From positions 496,001 through 560,000 of the forward strand of contig NZ_KQ948426.1 of NCBI RefSeq assembly GCF_001514065.1: DNA of 64,000 nt. The letters run 5' to 3'. The notes beneath the pieces are model-generated. The model made no database searches and was not told the origin of the DNA. It saw only the letters and a program-made list of their open reading frames with translations. The stretch's first letter is position 1. Each line of letters starts with the position of its first letter. The DNA comes from Streptomyces antibioticus. Its GTDB lineage: Bacteria > Actinomycetota > Actinomycetes > Streptomycetales > Streptomycetaceae. The position numbers and the translations under genes were made by a program. Shown one piece after another: positions 3,103-41,898 of this stretch.

Positions 3103-5079
<1,977 letters not shown>

Positions 5080-7079: not shown

Positions 7080-8099
7080 CTAGTTGACGAGCGCATCCGG
7101 CTTGCCCTTGCTGCGCGGCCGTTCCTCGACCATCTTGCCCCAGACGATCAACCGGTACTTGCTGGTGAACTCCGGCGTGCAGGTGGTGAGCGTGATGTAG
7201 CGGCCCGGCTCCTTGAAACCGGACTGCGGCGGCACCGGGTTCAGCACACTCGTGTTGCTCGGCGATGTCACCGGAAGCGATGACGTCATCTTGTAGACGT
7301 AGTAGTCGTCCTGCGTCTCCACGACTATCTCGTCGCCCTTGGACAGGCGGTTGATGTACCGGAACGGCTCGCCGTGCGTGTTGCGGTGGCCCGCCAGCCC
7401 GAAGTTGCCGGACTTCGCGCCCGGCATCGCCGTCTTCAGCGGGCCCTCCGAGTAGTGGCCCACCATGCCCCGGTCGAGCACCTTCTTGTTGCTGACGCCC
7501 TCGGCTATCGGCACGACCACGTCAAGCTTGGGGATGTGGAGCAGAGCGAAGCCCTGGCCCGGCGCGAACTCACCCGGCGCCCGCTTCCCGCTCTCCCACT
7601 CCTCCTGAAGGTTGCTCGCCTCCTTGCCGGCCTGCGCGTGCGCCCTGACGTTCGTCCACCACAACTGGTAGGTGACGAACAGCAGCATCAGCACACCCGT
7701 GGTGATGAACACCTCACCGACCGCCCGGCTGACGAGCACCCCGGGACTCGGCTTGCGGGCCTTCGCCCGCCGACGGGCCTCCACACGGGAGAGCGGCGCG
7801 GAGGATCCCGCATCGTCCTCAGGCTCTCCCGAGGGCGCCGCCCCGGCCCCATGACGCCCGCCACGCCGCTTGGCGGCCTTTCTGCGGGCCGCACGGCCAC
7901 CCGTGGGGCTCTCCGCCACTCCTGTTGCGGACGAGGCGCCAGAGGGCGACGTAGCCTCACCTATTCGCCCCGGCAGGTCGGAAAGCCTGAGCGCCACCGT
8001 CTCGTCGTCGAGCGGCGGCACATAAGGCTCGTAGGGCTCGTACGGCTGCTGCTCCCCGTACGAGGCCTCCGACTCGCGCTCGGGGCGCAGTGCGGTCAC
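7080..8099 (-). CDS. srtE1: Class E sortase (SrtE1-like) with long cytoplasmic N-terminus
   Basis: A 339-residue class E sortase. The GTG at 8097-8099 overlaps the stop of the upstream amidotransferase gene (GTGA), which fixes the start better than the longer open frame to 8165. About 145 cytoplasmic residues, rich in Glu, Pro and Tyr and then in Arg and Ala, precede one transmembrane helix (AVGEVFITTGVLMLLFVTYQ). The sortase domain carries the His in GLAGHRNTHGEPF, the Cys in LTTCTPEF and the Arg in TSKYRLIVWG. It probably shares substrates (chaplins and other LAxTG proteins) with the adjacent sortase. The long N-terminal tail is unusual for sortases in general but common in this Streptomyces group. 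Confidence 0.9.
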   Translation of the reverse strand: MTALRPERESEASYGEQQPYEPYEPYVPPLDDETVALRLSDLPGRIGEATSPSGASSATGVAESPTGGRAARRKAAKRRGGRHGAGAAPSGEPEDDAGSSAPLSRVEARRRAKARKPSPGVLVSRAVGEVFITTGVLMLLFVTYQLWWTNVRAHAQAGKEASNLQEEWESGKRAPGEFAPGQGFALLHIPKLDVVVPIAEGVSNKKVLDRGMVGHYSEGPLKTAMPGAKSGNFGLAGHRNTHGEPFRYINRLSKGDEIVVETQDDYYVYKMTSSLPVTSPSNTSVLNPVPPQSGFKEPGRYITLTTCTPEFTSKYRLIVWGKMVEERPRSKGKPDALVN

Positions 8100-8734
8100 G
8101 CCGTGGCCCTGCCCACCACCGGGGCCAGCCCCGCAGATCGCGCCACGGCACCCTGGTCGCCGCACTCCACCAGCCAGTTGGCCAGCATCCGGTGACCGTG
8201 CTCCGTGAGCACCGACTCGGGATGGAACTGGACGCCCTCGACAGGCAGTTCACGGTGCCGCAGGCCCATGATGATCCCGTCGTGCGTCCGGGCGGTCACC
8301 TCCAGCTCGGCCGGCACCGTGTCCGGCTCCGCCGCGAGGGAGTGGTAGCGGGTCGCCGTGAAGGGAGTCGGCAGCCCGGCGAACACGCCCTTGCCCTCGT
8401 GCTCCACCAACGACGTCTTGCCGTGCAGCAGCTCCGGCGCGCGGTCCACGACCCCGCCGTACGCCACCTGCATCGACTGCATGCCGAGGCAGACACCGAA
8501 CACCGGCACCCCGGTCGCCGCGCAGTGGCGGACCATCTCGATGCAGACGCCCGCCTCCTCCGGCGTCCCCGGGCCCGGCGACAGCAGGACACCGTCGAAG
8601 CCGTCCTGGGCGTGCGCCGTCGACACCTCGTCGTTGCGCAGCACCTCGCACTCGGCGCCCAGCTGGTACAGGTACTGCACCAGGTTGAAGACGAAGCTGT
8701 CGTAGTTGTCGACGACGAGAATCCGCGCACTCAC
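8096..8734 (-). CDS. pabA: Aminodeoxychorismate/anthranilate synthase component II (glutamine amidotransferase)
   Basis: A 212-residue class I glutamine amidotransferase that supplies ammonia for p-aminobenzoate (folate) or anthranilate (tryptophan) synthesis. The start is the GTG at 8732-8734 (VSARILVVDNYDSFVFNL), which overlaps the preceding stop by 4 bp; the open frame further upstream lacks homology. The nucleophile elbow is GVCLGMQSMQ with the active Cys, the oxyanion residues are LSPGPGTP, and the C-terminal His-Glu pair is in FHPESVLT. Sequence alone does not separate PabA from TrpG; no component I gene is adjacent. Its place inside a sortase operon looks positional rather than functional. 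Confidence 0.9.
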   Translation of the reverse strand: MSARILVVDNYDSFVFNLVQYLYQLGAECEVLRNDEVSTAHAQDGFDGVLLSPGPGTPEEAGVCIEMVRHCAATGVPVFGVCLGMQSMQVAYGGVVDRAPELLHGKTSLVEHEGKGVFAGLPTPFTATRYHSLAAEPDTVPAELEVTARTHDGIIMGLRHRELPVEGVQFHPESVLTEHGHRMLANWLVECGDQGAVARSAGLAPVVGRATA

Positions 8735-8892
8735 TGGTTGTCCACCGTCACATCGTTGAAGGGCAGCAGCGGTTCGGCCCACGGGAAGACGTACTGGAAG
8801 AGGACGTAGACCACAGCAAGCGCCAGCACGAGTGAGAGCAGCGCTTTCACCCACGCGTTCCCCGGCAGATGCCGCCAGATCCAGCCGTACAT
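8731..8892 (-). CDS. Small single-span membrane protein
   Basis: A 53-residue protein from the ATG at 8890-8892, preceded by a good GGAAGGG Shine-Dalgarno sequence. It has one transmembrane helix (about residues 16-36, ALLSLVLALAVVYVLFQYVF) flanked by an aromatic amphipathic N-terminus and a short acidic tail. Its stop overlaps the amidotransferase GTG (GTGA), so it is part of the operon. The function is unknown. A longer open frame reaching 9048 exists, but its extra residues look non-coding. Confidence 0.75.
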   Translation of the reverse strand: MYGWIWRHLPGNAWVKALLSLVLALAVVYVLFQYVFPWAEPLLPFNDVTVDNQ

Positions 8893-8945
8893 GCCGTCCC
8901 TTCCGTCGCACCACGGCACCAGACTCACGCCGTACAGCCACCAGA

Positions 8946-9647
8946 CTAACGGCGCAGCGCCTCCGGTTTCCCTGCCTCCACAGGCTGTGTGGAGTCCAGA
9001 TGCGCCCACACGATCAACCGGTGGCTGTGACCCCACTCCGGATCGCACGTGGTCAGGGTGAGATAGCGCCCCGACCGCGTATACCCGGAGTTACGTGGCA
9101 CAGGATCGATCACCTCAACGTCCGTGGGTACGGTTTTGTAGGGCCCTTTGTCGATCCGATACGTGAACCACGTCGTCCCGTCCGTCAGCACCACCGCATC
9201 CCCGCGCCGCAGCTTCGGGAAGTCCTTGAACGGGTCGCCGTACGTCCGCCGGTGCCCCGCCACCGAGAAGTTGCCCTCCTGGCCCAGCTGCGCGGTCCGC
9301 ACGTAGTGACCGAGCCCCTTCTTCAGCGTCCCGACCCCGGTGCCCTCCAGCACGGGCTTGTTCCACGTGAAACCAAGACGCGGGATGTACATGATCGCGA
9401 AGGGCTTGCCCTTCTTGTACGGCGCCGGAGCGGACGGACTCGCGGAGGCCTCCGCACCTCCGGTGGCCCTCGGCCGCTCCACCTGCCCCCTCGACCACTG
9501 CTCCTGGAGCTGGTCGATCTGCTCGCCCATGACGTTGTCGGCCTTCACGCCGGTCCAGAAGAGCACGTACACGACGAAGAGGACTATGACCGCGCCGACG
9601 GTGATGCAGAGTTCGCTGAGGGTCCTGACGACGAGACGTACTCGCAC
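8946..9647 (-). CDS. Third class E sortase paralogue
   Basis: A 233-residue sortase with an N-terminal transmembrane helix (about 9-31) starting almost immediately, unlike the other two sortases here. Catalytic residues are His in FSVAGHRRTYGDPF, Cys in LTLTTCDPEW and Arg in SHRLIVWA. The linker after the helix is rich in Arg, Gly, Ala and Ser. The start is a GTG at 9645-9647 with a weak GGAG upstream. It lies 37 bp after the DUF881 gene on the same strand. Its substrate cannot be told from the sequence. The reading frame contains a one-mismatch parS sequence. Confidence 0.88.
   Translation of the reverse strand: MRVRLVVRTLSELCITVGAVIVLFVVYVLFWTGVKADNVMGEQIDQLQEQWSRGQVERPRATGGAEASASPSAPAPYKKGKPFAIMYIPRLGFTWNKPVLEGTGVGTLKKGLGHYVRTAQLGQEGNFSVAGHRRTYGDPFKDFPKLRRGDAVVLTDGTTWFTYRIDKGPYKTVPTDVEVIDPVPRNSGYTRSGRYLTLTTCDPEWGHSHRLIVWAHLDSTQPVEAGKPEALRR
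9360..9373. other. parS-like site with one mismatch
   Basis: GTTCCACGTGAAAC differs from the 14-bp consensus GTTTCACGTGAAAC at one position. It lies inside the third sortase gene and may be a weak ParB site or chance. Confidence 0.4.
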
Positions 9648-9684: not shown

Positions 9685-10464
9685 CTACTCCACGGGCTTG
9701 GCGTACTGCAGATCCACTGTGCCCGAGTAGCCGGGCAGAGTCACCGCTCCGTCGTCCTCGACTTTCCATCCGAGGCCATAGACGTTGACGTAGACCATGT
9801 AGTTCTGGATCGCCTTGCTGGCGGCCAGCGACTGCTTCAGCTTCTCCGGGTCCCCGACCGCCGTGATCTTGTACGGCGGTGAGTAGACCCGGCCCTGGAG
9901 AATCAGCGTGTTGCCCACGCAGCGCACGGCGCTGGTGGAGATCAGCCGCTGGTCCATGACCTTGATGCCCTGGGCGCCGCCCTGCCACAGCGCGTTGACC
10001 ACGGCCTGGAGATCCTGCTGGTGGATGACGAGGTAGTCGGGCTGCGGCTCGGGATAGCCGGGGAGCTTGGCCGTCGCGTCCGGCGGGGCGTCGTTGAGCG
10101 TGACGCTGATCGCCTCGCCCTTCAGCTTCTGGGTGCCCGCTTTCTTCTCCAGCGCCGCCAGCTTCTCGTCCTCGGCCTTGGTCGACCCGTCGTCCCGCTC
10201 GGCCAGCGCCTCGACGTCGTCGCGCAGGGCGCCGTTGGACTCGTCGAGCTGACCGTTCTTGTGGCTGCGCTCCAGGATCAGGTCGGACAGCTTCAGCAGC
10301 GAGGCGTCCGTACGGATGTTGGTGCCCTTGGCCGTGTTGAAGCTGGTGAAGAAAATGAGCCCCGCGAGCGCGAAGACGGCCACCGTGAGCAGCCGCACGG
10401 GCCGGAAACGTCGGCCGCGGTCAGGGGTGGATCCCATCCCCTGGGGGTTGGCAGAATTGCTCAA
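9685..10464 (-). CDS. DUF881 family membrane-anchored protein
   Basis: A 259-residue protein with a short basic cytoplasmic N-terminus, one transmembrane helix (about 23-42, LLTVAVFALAGLIFFTSF), an extracellular coiled-coil region (about 55-110) and a conserved globular DUF881 domain with the signature YLVIHQQDLQAVVNALWQGG and its C-terminal GLGWKVE. The family is widespread near division genes in Gram-positives, and its biochemical role is not established. The start is a TTG at 10462-10464 with GAAGGAG upstream; an internal ATG nine codons on is the alternative. It probably heads the minus-strand operon with the sortases and faces crgA divergently. Confidence 0.85.
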   Translation of the reverse strand: MSNSANPQGMGSTPDRGRRFRPVRLLTVAVFALAGLIFFTSFNTAKGTNIRTDASLLKLSDLILERSHKNGQLDESNGALRDDVEALAERDDGSTKAEDEKLAALEKKAGTQKLKGEAISVTLNDAPPDATAKLPGYPEPQPDYLVIHQQDLQAVVNALWQGGAQGIKVMDQRLISTSAVRCVGNTLILQGRVYSPPYKITAVGDPEKLKQSLAASKAIQNYMVYVNVYGLGWKVEDDGAVTLPGYSGTVDLQYAKPVE

Positions 10465-10605
10465 CGTACCCTTATCTCCTTCGGCGCCGCGGAAGCACTA
10501 CGCTAACGGACGCCCGGGGGAGCACTCAGTGTCCCCTTGTACGCTGCCCCGAGCCCGACCCAGCTACCTGCGCGGCCACGCAGCGCATCGACAGGAGAGA
10601 CCCTC

Positions 10606-10860
10606 GTGCCGAAGTCACGTATCCGCAAGAAGGCCGACTACACGCCGCCGCCGGCGAAGCAGGCGACCAGCATCAAGCTGAACAGCCGCGCCTGGGTCGC
10701 GCCCGTGATGCTGGCCCTGTTCGTCATCGGGCTGGCCTGGATCGTCGTCTTCTATGTGACGGACGGCTCCCTGCCCATCGATGCGCTGGACAACTGGAAC
10801 ATCGTGGTGGGCTTCGGCTTCATCGCCGCCGGGTTCGGCGTCTCCACGCAGTGGAAGTAG
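10606..10860 (+). CDS. crgA: Cell division inhibitor CrgA
   Basis: An 84-residue membrane protein with two transmembrane helices (about 31-52 and 64-80). It modulates FtsZ ring formation and coordinates growth and septation in actinomycetes. The N-terminus [16 protein letters not shown] is the family hallmark. The start is a GTG at 10606 with AGGAGAG seven bases upstream. The length equals that of known Streptomyces CrgA. It is divergent from DUF881 and is followed by a cluster of DnaA boxes. Confidence 0.95.
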
Positions 10861-10884
10861 CTCTGCCCCGAGCTGTTCGCTGAG

Positions 10885-11099
10885 TTATCCACAGATCGCG
10901 AAAGTATCCACAGGCTGCCTGGGGACAATAGAACGACGATCTGTGGATAACTCACAGAGGGTTGACGCCGGTACGACTGCCACACCGGCCTCCGTATACC
11001 TGTTCGCCCCCTGCCTGACCTGCGGAAACACGGGTCAGCGACAGGGGGCACAGTTGTTCGCGCACACTATGCACAAGATTACTAACCCGCTGTGGACAA
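10885..11099. promoter_or_regulatory. Extra-origin cluster of high-affinity DnaA boxes
   Basis: The crgA-rhomboid intergenic region holds TTATCCACA at 10885-10893, GTATCCACA at 10904-10912 (one mismatch), TGTGGATAA at 10942-10950 (perfect, inverted) and TGTGGACAA at 11091-11099 (the Streptomyces-preferred TTGTCCACA, inverted). Clusters of DnaA boxes outside oriC that titrate DnaA and affect initiation frequency have been reported in S. coelicolor, one of them about 24 kb from oriC. The distance here (about 24 kb) fits. No gene is visible in this stretch. Confidence 0.8.
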
Positions 11100-11114
11100 C
11101 GAGCCTTTTCGCGC

Positions 11115-12005
11115 TCAGGTGAGCTGGGCCGTGCGCAGCAGAGTCATGGCGACGAGCACGACGAGGACGATCGCGCAGGTCCCGTACTGGACGAGGGCGC
11201 GATGCTCGCGCGGGGCGTGGATCATGGCGTAGCCGATGACGATGCCGCCGACGAGGCCGCCGATGTGGGCCTGCCAGGAGATGTTGAAGCTCGGGTTGAA
11301 GGTGAAGATCAGGTTGATCACCAGCAGGGCGATGATCGGCCGCAGGTCGTAGTTGCGGTGGCGCATGAGGACGCCGGTGGCGCCGAAGAGGCCGAAGATC
11401 GCGCCGGAGGCGCCGAGCGAGGGCTGGTTGGGGGCGGCGAGGAGGTAGGTAAGCGCGCTGCCGGCGAGGCCGGAGACGAAGTAGAGCGTGAGGTAGCGGG
11501 CGCGGCCGAGGGCTGCTTCGAGGGGGCCGCCGATCCACCACAAGCTGAGCATGTTGAAGATGATGTGGATGTAACCGCCGTGGAGGAACATCACGGTCAG
11601 GAGCCGGTACCACTGGCCCTCGGCCACGCCTTCGACACCGCCCAGGAGTGGGACGTAGGCACGGCCGATGAGGTCGAAGCTGTCGGTGAAGCGGTCGCCG
11701 ACGGAGAGCTGGACCAAGTACGCGGCGAGGCACAGACCGATGAGGATCTTGGTGATGAGCCTCGGGTCCGAGGTGACCGTCCCTCCGGCGAGCGTGCGGG
11801 GCGTCGCCGCGTCCGGGGCGTGGCCGGTGCCGGAGCCGGTGCGGACGCAGTCGGGGCACTGGAAGCCGACGGAGGCGCTGATCATGCATTCGGGGCAGAT
11901 GGGGCGTTCGCAGCGGGTGCAGCGGATGCCGGTCTCACGGTCGGGGTGGCGGTAGCAGCCGGGCAGGCTCTGTTCCTGCTGCGGACTGCCTGGCGCCTGG
12001 TCCAT
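11115..12005 (-). CDS. Rhomboid family intramembrane serine protease with N-terminal zinc finger
   Basis: A 296-residue protein. The first 60 residues hold a Cys/His-rich zinc-binding module (CYRHPDRETGIRCTRC, CPEC, CPDC). About six transmembrane helices of the rhomboid core follow (about 85-290). The catalytic Ser is in GASGAIFGLFG and the catalytic His in QAHIGGLVGG. Rhomboids cut transmembrane helices of substrate proteins. The start is the ATG at 12003-12005. It is the downstream gene of a minus-strand pair with ppiA, separated from it by a hairpin. Substrates are unknown. Confidence 0.92.
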   Translation of the reverse strand: MDQAPGSPQQEQSLPGCYRHPDRETGIRCTRCERPICPECMISASVGFQCPDCVRTGSGTGHAPDAATPRTLAGGTVTSDPRLITKILIGLCLAAYLVQLSVGDRFTDSFDLIGRAYVPLLGGVEGVAEGQWYRLLTVMFLHGGYIHIIFNMLSLWWIGGPLEAALGRARYLTLYFVSGLAGSALTYLLAAPNQPSLGASGAIFGLFGATGVLMRHRNYDLRPIIALLVINLIFTFNPSFNISWQAHIGGLVGGIVIGYAMIHAPREHRALVQYGTCAIVLVVLVAMTLLRTAQLT

Positions 12006-12040
12006 GAGGTCGTCCCCTACGTCGTCGTATGCAATGAAAC

Positions 12041-12072
12041 CGCCCCGTCCATCCTTACGGACGGGCGGGGCG
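12041..12072 (-). terminator. Probable terminator between ppiA and rhomboid gene
   Basis: The arms CCGCCCCGTCC and GGACGGGCGGGGCG form a GC-rich hairpin with a small bulge, flanked by AAAC and GTTT. It lies after the ppiA stop (minus strand). It may be partial, letting some transcription reach the rhomboid gene. Confidence 0.55.
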
Positions 12073-12096
12073 TTTGGTTCCCTGCGGGTGCTGGTG

Positions 12097-12630
<534 letters not shown>

Positions 12631-14164: not shown

Positions 14165-14169
14165 TGTTG

Positions 14170-14242
14170 TGGAGCCTAGGGGAGTCGAACCCCTGACATC
14201 TGCCATGCAAAGACAGCGCTCTACCAACTGAGCTAAGGCCCC
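14170..14242 (-). tRNA. tRNA-Ala (anticodon TGC)
   Basis: The minus strand folds as a 73-nt cloverleaf. The acceptor arms GGGGCCT and AGGCTCC pair, the D arm is AGCTCAGTTGGTAGAGC, the anticodon stem CTGTC/GGCAG holds loop TTTGCAT with anticodon TGC, and the T arm includes GGTTCGACTCC. CCA is not encoded. Confidence 0.97.
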
Positions 14243-24680: not shown

Positions 24681-24687
24681 CGTTCTG

Positions 24688-24761
24688 TGGGGCTAACAGG
24701 ATTTGAACCTGTGGCCTCATCCTTATCAGGGATGCGCTCTAACCAACTGAGCTATAGCCCC
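24688..24761 (-). tRNA. tRNA-Ile (anticodon GAT)
   Basis: The minus strand gives a 74-nt cloverleaf. Acceptor GGGGCTA pairs with TAGCCCC, the D arm is AGCTCAGTTGGTTAGAGC, the anticodon stem CATCC/GGATG holds loop CTGATAA with anticodon GAT, and the T arm has GGTTCAAATCC. CCA is not encoded. Confidence 0.97.
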
Positions 24762-33543: not shown

Positions 33544-34674
33544 TCAGCCGCTCAGCCGCACCGGCATGATCAGGTACTTGTAGGCCTCGTCCGCCTCCGC
33601 GTCCAGGGCCGGCTTGCCGCTGAGCAGCGCGGGCTTCGTGGACGTCGTGAAGGACAGCTGGGCGACCGGGGAGTCGATGGCGCTCAGGCCGTCCAGCAGG
33701 AAGGTCGGGTTGAAGGCGATCGAGATGTCGTCGCCGTCGAGGTTGGCGTCGACGCGCTCCACAGCCTGTGCGTCGTCGCTGGAACCGGCCTCCAGGATCA
33801 GCACGCCCTGCTCGAAGCTCAGCCGCACCGGGGTGTTGCGCTCGGCGACCAGGGCCACACGCTTGACGGCCTCCACGAAGGGGGCGGTCTCGATCACGGC
33901 GACGGAGTTGAACTCGGTCGGGAACAGCGTGCGGTACTTCGGGAGGTCGCCTTCGAGCAGACGCGTGGTCGTACGCCGGCCCGCGCCCTCGAAACCGATC
34001 AGGCCCTCGCCCGCGCCCGAGCCGGAGAGCGCCAGGGTGACGCTGTCGCCGCTCGTGAGCGCCTTGGCGGTGTCCAGGAGCGTCTTGGCGGGCACCAGGG
34101 CCACCGCGGACGCGTCGGGGTTCTCCGGCTTCCACAGGAACTCGCGGACCGCGAAGCGGTAGCGGTCGGTGGAGGCGAGCGTGACGGTGTCGCCCTCGAT
34201 CTCGATGCGCACACCGGTCAGCACCGGCAGCGTGTCGTCGCGTCCGGCCGCGATGGCGACCTGGGCGGCGGCGGAGGCGAAGACCTCACCGGGGACGGTG
34301 CCGGTCGCGGTCGGCATCTGCGGCAGCGCCGGGTACTCCTCCACCGGCAGGGTGTGGAGGGTGAACCGCGAGGAGCCGCAGACCACGGTCGCCCGTACAC
34401 CGTCTGTGGAAATCTCCACCGGGCGGTTGGGGAGGGCGCGGCAGATGTCGGCGAGCAGGCGGCCGGAGACCAGGACCGTGCCCTCCTCCTCGACCTCGGC
34501 CTCGACGCTGACCCGCGCGGAGACCTCGTAGTCGAAGCTGGACAGGCTCAGCTGGCCGTCCTCGGCCTTCAGCAGAAGGCCGGCGAGGACAGGCGCCGGC
34601 GGACGGGCCGGGAGGCTGCGTGCCGCCCAGGCCACTGCCTCCGCGAGTACGTCGCGTTCCACCCGGATCTTCAC
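33544..34674 (-). CDS. dnaN: DNA polymerase III sliding clamp (beta subunit)
   Basis: A 376-residue clamp with three repeated clamp domains. It begins VKIRVERDVLAEAVAWAARS and ends with the hydrophobic-groove element YLIMPVRLSG. The GTG start at 34672-34674 has AGGAGG upstream. Longer frames toward oriC are not supported. It is transcribed away from oriC on the minus strand like dnaA, leaving the DnaA boxes between them. Confidence 0.97.
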   Translation of the reverse strand: MKIRVERDVLAEAVAWAARSLPARPPAPVLAGLLLKAEDGQLSLSSFDYEVSARVSVEAEVEEEGTVLVSGRLLADICRALPNRPVEISTDGVRATVVCGSSRFTLHTLPVEEYPALPQMPTATGTVPGEVFASAAAQVAIAAGRDDTLPVLTGVRIEIEGDTVTLASTDRYRFAVREFLWKPENPDASAVALVPAKTLLDTAKALTSGDSVTLALSGSGAGEGLIGFEGAGRRTTTRLLEGDLPKYRTLFPTEFNSVAVIETAPFVEAVKRVALVAERNTPVRLSFEQGVLILEAGSSDDAQAVERVDANLDGDDISIAFNPTFLLDGLSAIDSPVAQLSFTTSTKPALLSGKPALDAEADEAYKYLIMPVRLSG

Positions 34675-35564
34675 TGTTGCCGCCTCCTGCTGTTGCCGGC
34701 GCTTCGCTCTGCCTGGCCTCGTCGTCTGTCTCGGTGTCGTCGGCCCCTGTGAGGGGAAGGACACCGGGGAACAGTCTGACGCACCCCACTGACAGTAGGT
34801 GCCTCTCGGGGTCAAGTCGTGACGAGGGGCAGTCGGGAGCCGGACAGCGAGTTGTGCACAGGACCCCCTTCGAAACGGATTCCCAGCTCTCTCTAGTTGG
34901 GAGTAGTAGTAGGGGCTGTGGATACCGTGGATAACTGCGTTTTCGCAGGTCAGCCCGGAAATTTTGTCCACGGGCCCTGTGGGCGGAGACGGTGGACAAC
35001 TCGGGGTGTCTGTGGAGAACAGAAAGTTCTGCACACCCCGTGCACAGGCTGAGCCGAGTTCTCCCCAGCTGCGTCCCCAGCTTTACCCACGTTTCCCACA
35101 CCCCAACCCGGCACCTTCGTGTGACGCCTTTCACTCGACACGGTGAGCGGCCGCGTCGCGTTGCCGAACAGTGGACAGCCATGTGGAGAAGCTGGGGATC
35201 GCTGGGGACAACCTGGCTCAGCCTGTGGGTTGCCGGTGGACAACTTGATGCACAGCCTGTGGATCTTTTCGTCGTCCACAGTCTGTGGAGATCGCTCGTC
35301 CACGAATCCACAACCACTTGACCTGGCCTGATGGTCTTTCAACAGACCTCCTGTGGACGGCGATCTGGACAACTTGGCGGTCCCCAGGATGTGGACGGCA
35401 GAAAGTCGGTGAATCTGTGGAGGGAGGCCGTAACGCGGCAGGTAATCGAACATGCGGCTACGAGGACGTGACGGCCCGGACGGCGTCCCGGACCCTGGCG
35501 GCATGACGAAGGGCGCCCCCGGACCGTGTCCCGGAGCGCCCCGAACGCCGTGAGTGCGCCTGCG
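34675..35564. other. oriC: Chromosomal replication origin oriC
   Basis: The dnaN-dnaA intergenic region of 890 bp carries no gene but about twenty DnaA-box-like 9-mers in both orientations. Examples: TTGTGCACA 34852, TGTGGATAC 34917, CGTGGATAA 34926, TTGTCCACG 34964, GGTGGACAA 34991, TGTGGAGAA 35011 and 35182, TGGGGACAA 35203, GGTGGACAA 35235, TCGTCCACA 35272, TGTGGAGAT 35284, TCGTCCACG 35297, GAATCCACA 35304, TGTGGACGG 35352 and 35390, TCTGGACAA 35364, TGTGGAGGG 35416. They fall in two blocks (34852-35035 and 35170-35424) with a box-poor spacer. I read no perfect TTGTCCACA or TTATCCACA. No AT-rich unwinding tract stands out, as usual for Streptomyces. Confidence 0.95.
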
Positions 35565-41707: not shown

Positions 41708-41898
41708 GTCGCTCACTGCTGCACGGCATCATCAGCCGTGGTCGCGCCGCGGCCGAACCTCGCGAACGCAAGCCCCTAGGTTCTCTTGGAGAAGGCCGCC
41801 CGGATGACACTCCGTCCCCCTCGGGGGGCACGGAGTTGTCCACAGAGGTGGATTTCTCCACAGAACACCAGGCCTCACTGGTTCACGACCCCGAAGAC

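Follow-up and report, generated by a model that had tools for sequence, protein, structure and literature searches.

The gap between the cell-division gene crgA and a convergent rhomboid-type gene in Streptomyces antibioticus carries a cluster of boxes for DnaA, the initiator of DNA replication, which, from the comparison of relatives, is probably an old and ordered element kept across the class Actinomycetes. Clusters of DnaA boxes outside oriC are already known in Streptomyces, and what our sequence comparison would add to them is the evolutionary depth of the crgA-linked one. As it recurs in most of the actinomycete families sampled, the cluster has probably long served to brake or switch replication and is unlikely to be due to chance.

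In the window, i.e., the whole stretch of 64,000 nucleotides analyzed here, 254 bp separate the crgA stop (10860) from the rhomboid stop (11115), and 215 bp of this gap hold three perfect and two one-mismatch boxes (Table 1), hence the several near-consensus boxes of an origin-proximal cluster. The three perfect boxes, starting at 10885, 10942, and 11091, are those reported by the earlier note on this DNA, whereas the one-mismatch boxes number two and not one as it had counted. The crgA gene is SCO3854 in the nomenclature used in the available part of PMC4255298. A pattern scan places three of the four exact TTRTCCACA of the window in the gap, while the number expected in the window from 100 dinucleotide-preserving shuffles has a mean of 0.22 and a maximum of 2. 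Box B1 starts 24 bp past the crgA stop and is followed by B2 after a step of 19 bp (12–13 bp in many relatives), the TTGAC of the conserved block starts 11 bp past the end of B3, and two boxes with two mismatches overlap at 11067/11068. The name rhomboid for the convergent gene is that of the earlier note and is presumed here.

Table 1. Positions in the window of the parts of the crgA-linked cluster, its flanking genes, and oriC
Feature	Position	Strand	Description
crgA	10606..10860	+	ORF, 84 aa
Inverted repeat	10881..10954	.	18 bp, perfect, encloses B1 and B3; arms 10881-10898 and 10937-10954
DnaA box B1	10885..10893	+	TTATCCACA, perfect
DnaA box B2	10904..10912	+	GTATCCACA, one mismatch
Weak opposed box b3'	10920..10928	-	TTGTCCCCA, one mismatch
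DnaA box B3	10942..10950	-	TTATCCACA, perfect
Conserved non-DnaA block	10961..10977	+	GTTGACGCCGGTACGAC, candidate site of MtrA (OmpR-type regulator)
Hairpin	11006..11049	.	G+C-rich, perhaps a terminator
Weak box b4'	11068..11076	-	TTGTGCATA, two mismatches; 23 bp from B4
DnaA box B4	11091..11099	-	TTGTCCACA, perfect; 149 bp start-to-start from B3
Rhomboid-type membrane protein gene	11115..12005	-	ORF and homologues; convergent with crgA
oriC DnaA-box array	34852..35398	.	No perfect box; distance reference

Elsewhere in the window, ARAGORN finds tRNA genes for Ala(tgc) at 14169–14242 and Ile(gat) at 24687–24761. Two sortase-like ORFs were recognized by eye around a glutamine amidotransferase-like ORF of the TrpG/PabA type (7080–9647), the sortases from a presumed motif. 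Beyond dnaA, a perfect DnaA box is found 18 bp from one with a single mismatch (41836–41862).

A scan of positions 34600–35560 gave 24 oriC boxes with at most two mismatches, 11 of them with one and none perfect, in agreement with the earlier statement that the boxes of oriC all deviate from the consensus. The separation of about 24 kb that had been announced between the cluster and oriC was also recovered, as measured between 11099 and 34852, where the oriC boxes begin, and the cluster boxes are indeed the stronger ones as far as match to the consensus goes, a higher affinity being predicted from this match. Over the whole genome, there are 65 exact TTRTCCACA, compared with 24 matches to the backwards pattern, and 14 of the 65 fall within C5:475370–C5:635969, a region of ~161 kb round oriC whose limits were set after inspection of the box list and where an even spread would give ~1. 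Perfect pairs of DnaA boxes were also seen at C5:195535–195561, C2:1116276–1116298, and C16:1765–1788, and three boxes, two of which are perfect and opposed to each other at a distance of 25 bp, at C5:606144–606197 (L143 6144–6197), 75 kb from oriC.

The other near-oriC place of the source genome with three perfect boxes is the serS-pheA gap, 86 kb beyond oriC (C5:616982–617523; L143 16982–17523), which we take to be probably the equivalent of cluster D78 of Streptomyces coelicolor. We scanned 600 bp downstream of the best 30 pheA matches in the class sample, in which Streptomyces is the only genus of the family. All 11 Streptomyces have boxes there, with at least one perfect, and 6 of the 11 share the layout > 13 > 25 < as read from pheA (> and < giving box orientation). 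Outside the family, 19 loci were obtained, one of them cut off, and 17 of the 18 readable ones have no box while the last has a single one-mismatch box. Since the serS-pheA cluster was not found outside the family and the crgA one recurs there, the near-oriC clusters are not all old, and the crgA-linked one is.

A CrgA homologue is present in 149 of the 150 genomes of the genus, and the exact inverted pair TTATCCACA N34-64 TGTGGATAA in 87 of the 150, with none for the reversed-pattern control. Gaps were fetched for 62 genomes that lack the exact pair (G102, the one left of 63, yielded no CrgA), for 10 that have it, and for 80 named loci which, being the 80 best CrgA matches, are close relatives and may overlap with the unnamed set; this gave 154 Streptomyces stretches, including the window and two pieces of one genome, G021. 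B3 together with B4 (TGTGGA[CTA]AA, 100–200 bp on) was found in 151 of the 154, including 80/80 named loci, 61/62 genomes without the exact pair, and 9/9 others. The spacing between B3 and B4 is narrow (149 bp in 84 of the 151, 146–150 bp in 124, and 159–161 bp in 17), while B1 lies anywhere between 10 and 366 bp from crgA. In a nonredundant alignment of 69 sequences, chosen for having B3 and B4, ATCTGTGGATAAC at B3 is invariant, CTGTGGACAA at B4 is near-invariant, and two more stretches are conserved, GTTGACGCCGGTRYGAC and TGCACAAGAT, the latter (11070–11079) with 9 of its 10 positions conserved at 90% or more.

The three stretches without B3 and B4 are L082, from G010, and both pieces of G021. 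In G010, boxes persist after crgA (exact ones at 3754 and 3989 of L294) and the exact B3 is missing; the crgA match of this genome (L294 3320–3989) ends at residue 76–77. G021 is a natural rearrangement in which a complete and inverted element lies directly past the rhomboid stop, ~5.2 kb from crgA (L293 2928–9463). Furthermore, the distances between B1 and B3 in 150 Streptomyces are trimodal, with 35 at 31–35 bp, 74 at 41–46, and 39 at 52–57, besides two at 66. These modes mostly resemble a 12-bp tandem register whose consensus boxes differ between lineages, as suggested by other genera where exact boxes occur jointly at −31 and −43, or at −43 and −55. Helical phasing of B1 and B3 was consequently dropped and is kept solely for B3 and B4.

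Beyond the genus, CrgA was found in 61/61 genomes of the family and in 139/148 of the class. We examined all 51 loci of the family outside the genus with one more Streptomyces (L161–L212), and, outside the family, 48 of the 128 crgA-positive genomes, hand-picked for family coverage and belonging to 18 families (L213–L240 and L243–L262). In 43 of these 48 loci, a box with one mismatch or none lies within 200 bp of crgA, the five others having no such box near the gene. The usual step is 10–12 or 23 bp for opposed boxes and 12–13 bp for tandem ones, an arrangement captured as a compact module that combines a tandem pair with one opposed box (> 12-13 > 10-13 < or its mirror > 10-13 < 12-13 <, with at most two mismatches per box). 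This module is present in 40 of the 48 class loci, covering 15 of the 18 families, and missing in eight; dinucleotide-preserving shuffling, 100 times per locus, never produced it, and of 236 control slices a single one contains it. Its spacing windows were picked after viewing the loci and are hence unblinded; less dependent on them is the contrast in density outside the family, with 105 boxes of at most one mismatch in the first 9,600 bp (200 bp after each crgA) versus 6 in the 49,060 bp from 300 bp on.

Within the family, the compact triple is found in 40 of the 52 loci (1,000 bp searched), and a profile of the B3–B4 sequence alone (R1) matches 34 of the 61 genomes at E 0.01, some of them weakly; adjacency to crgA is a better guide to the element than this profile. 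In Streptomyces, 67 of the 151 sequences have a triple > 12-13 > 9-13 <, the count being for this form and not its mirror. The whole window contains no compact triple, its own steps being 19, 16, and 22 bp as against 12–13, 10, and 20–22. The rhomboid gene is convergent wherever it was found (151/154 Streptomyces, 51/51 other-genus, and 28/48 class loci), and in the 20 class loci where it was not found within ~1.3 kb, most still have the boxes.

An exact opposed distal box follows B3 in 37 of the 51 other-genus loci of the family, at distances of 82–190 bp, and the remaining 14 have no exact one in the range searched (60–210 bp from B3). Taken as 24 distinct genus-distance values over 10 genera, they favor a 10.7-bp period (R 0.60), a strength matched by 1 of 5000 jittered sets, by 7 of 5000 when only distinct distances are kept, and by 51 of 5000 when each genus enters once, these statistics being optimistic as the genera are related. 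Leaving out single genera keeps R between 0.51 and 0.81. Steps of ~10.7 bp would match a DNA loop whose two ends lie on the same helical face.

Between B3 and B4, TTGAC[AG] stands at offset 11 or 12 from B3 in 142 of the 151 Streptomyces sequences; TTGAC occurs at offset 11 in the loci of g7, g8, g9, g13, and g16 and is absent from that place in g2–g6, g11, g12, g14, g15, and g17. According to the available part of PMC5650626, the MtrA consensus of S. coelicolor is KTRACC-N5-GTKAC, and MtrA of Mycobacterium tuberculosis is cited there as sequestering oriC. TTGACG-CCGGT-GTGAC departs from this consensus at one of 11 positions, and 31 of the 64 nonredundant spacers have a single miss of this kind, while 10 spacers have two misses, 19 have three, and 4 have four; only 0.8% of letter shuffles come within one miss. 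The block of the window is itself among the poor fits (3–4 misses), with ACGAC as its second half. In S. venezuelae, MtrA is described as binding upstream of dnaA, the expression of dnaA in the mutant showing no significant change (available text of PMC13189361). Altogether, MtrA is the first candidate for this conserved block. The idea that the GTTGACGCCGG block is a multi-copy regulator motif was rejected, as the pattern GTTGACGCCGRTRYGAC is exact just once in the genome; with at most two mismatches, it has 43 places, versus 10 for the reversed pattern.

The 2006 study of Smulczyk-Krawczyszyn reportedly named three clusters in S. coelicolor, H69, H24, and D78, of which D78 is said to be the strongest and the one with a deletion phenotype. 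We take H69 to be the cosmid with crgA, and the 24 in the distance claimed by the earlier note is, we presume, possibly a cosmid number. Through SCO3854 and this presumed cosmid name, the crgA-linked cluster is probably the orthologue of H69. The proposal that it is the same control element as in S. coelicolor is partly supported, by sequence, position, and conservation and by two papers citing the 2006 study (PMC4585315 and PMC5742627), whereas the function shown, presumably that of D78, would concern another cluster. Like the S. coelicolor clusters, the element is origin-proximal, intergenic, and nearer to consensus than the boxes of oriC; here it is in addition traced over the class, where the layout is ordered, the distal box keeps its distances, and a second motif is conserved in part of the relatives. 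The near-oriC clusters of S. coelicolor and those of Bacillus subtilis (Okumura 2012) are stated to repress untimely initiation, as datA does, in the available parts of PMC4585315 and PMC5742627. As for datA of Escherichia coli, it also has stronger and weaker boxes close to oriC, the site of another protein lying among them (available part of PMC10950094), and two head-to-head boxes at 12 bp in its region, but it differs by its IHF site and tRNA operon context and has no gene-order relation to the element.

With moderate confidence, we read the element as an old extra-oriC site for the structured assembly of DnaA, which would be duplicated early and would restrain re-initiation in a datA-like manner. 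DnaA would bind the consensus boxes tightly and spread cooperatively to the weak ones that lie between; in the Streptomycetaceae, looping of the DNA would let it reach the distal box, placed on the same face of the helix. In Streptomyces and part of its sister genera, the conserved block amid the boxes may be occupied by another protein, perhaps the response regulator MtrA. Owing to its proximity to dnaA, the element would double soon after oriC fires, and its closeness to oriC in the source genome fits such an early duplication; the extra copies would hold or inactivate DnaA, by titration or as datA does, and the new origins would thereby be kept from refiring. The distance between crgA and dnaA has a median of 20.8 kb (range 9.1–124.5 kb) in the 63 class genomes with both on the same contig, 49 of which have them within 40 kb, and it reaches about 131 kb in four further class genomes if these are circular. 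The nearness of the element to oriC may merely reflect crgA being origin-proximal.

A possible though unlikely alternative is a DARS-like switch, in which DnaA molecules bound head to head would release ADP, so that the element would recharge DnaA and promote initiation. The cores of DARS1 and DARS2 in E. coli MG1655, whose places we presumed and whose boxes we read from the sequence, are both laid out as > 14 < 12 <; like the class module, they have two tandem boxes and one opposed in a fixed layout, i.e., the topology of the actinomycete > 13 > 10 < or > 10 < 13 < and of the 40 class loci mentioned above. On the other hand, their spacing is not that of the element: the head-to-head step is 14 in both DARS and 10–13 in the element, the class having mostly 10–12 and 12–13, and the window, without the compact form, 16 and 22. 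The E. coli DARS moreover lie far from the origin, whereas the element is near it. The available text of PMC8682772 describes opposed boxes I and II as driving ADP release through head-to-head contact, and the DARS2 core as conserved among gamma-proteobacteria. Given that the datA region also has its head-to-head pair at 12, topology cannot separate datA from DARS, and with a DARS-like topology at another spacing, sequence alone cannot tell an element restraining DnaA from one recharging it; a further argument against recharging is that the Streptomyces clusters are said to "repress" initiation (PMC4585315 and PMC5742627, as available). Passive titration by a group of strong boxes whose arrangement is irrelevant is unlikely: it would suit consensus boxes near oriC, the different layout of the serS-pheA cluster, the loose module spacing of the source genome, and the 84 of 151 Streptomyces sequences in which the form sought was not found, but a mere sink would keep only number and strength of boxes, and not recurring opposed and tandem steps, distal-box distances, and an extra block.

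We consider it quite unlikely that the gap serves as a transcription roadblock or terminator, with DnaA and the hairpin halting RNA polymerase from both convergent genes. The convergent rhomboid gene and the good folding of the gap in the source genome (z −5.0) would agree with it, and DnaA is described as able to pause RNA polymerase at asnC and as reducing read-through at datA (available part of PMC10950094). However, while an exact stem of at least 7 stands at the hairpin place in 48 of the 69 nonredundant spacers, the other 21 have none although all have B3 and B4, and no fold shared over the 69 sequences was found (RNAalifold −1.36 kcal/mol, 0 of 11 pairs compensatory); the boxes are mostly kept where the rhomboid gene was not found, and a roadblock has no need of box distances in helical steps. 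A structured RNA was rejected, since relatives keep the boxes and not the inverted-repeat arms, which differ outside B1 and B3 among the relatives inspected by eye, and have no common fold; Rfam gave one chance-level match for 10000–12500 (18.1 bits, below the cut-off of 40). Most improbable is a control of crgA or of the rhomboid gene by DnaA bound to the element, as in the tie between replication timing and septation proposed by the earlier note. That crgA and DnaA boxes occur together in 43 of the 48 class loci would favor it, but the boxes are downstream of both genes, in a convergent gap, which leads us to reject a promoter role, and the element of G021 is complete far from crgA, so that the proposal was not borne out. 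In addition, crgA is near dnaA in general, and the neighborhood may persist for other reasons.

Among the matches listed in the open literature, no crgA-linked DnaA element appears in titles or abstract beginnings, and the available texts matching both crgA and DnaA box contain the two terms only apart. To our knowledge, how actinomycetes limit the initiation of replication is poorly understood. A more speculative reading, which we deem improbable, is that the crgA module is an ancestral nucleoprotein switch of the class Actinomycetes acting on the nucleotide state of DnaA, with MtrA input through the looped complex in the Streptomycetaceae; if true, a division-linked signal and the initiator would meet at one site. 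The actinomycetes include antibiotic producers and major pathogens, and the crgA cluster is the one to test, being old, whereas the serS-pheA cluster was not found outside the family. With one small element, deletable in a laboratory Streptomyces, recurring in most of the families sampled, the control of initiation in these bacteria would become open to direct experiment.
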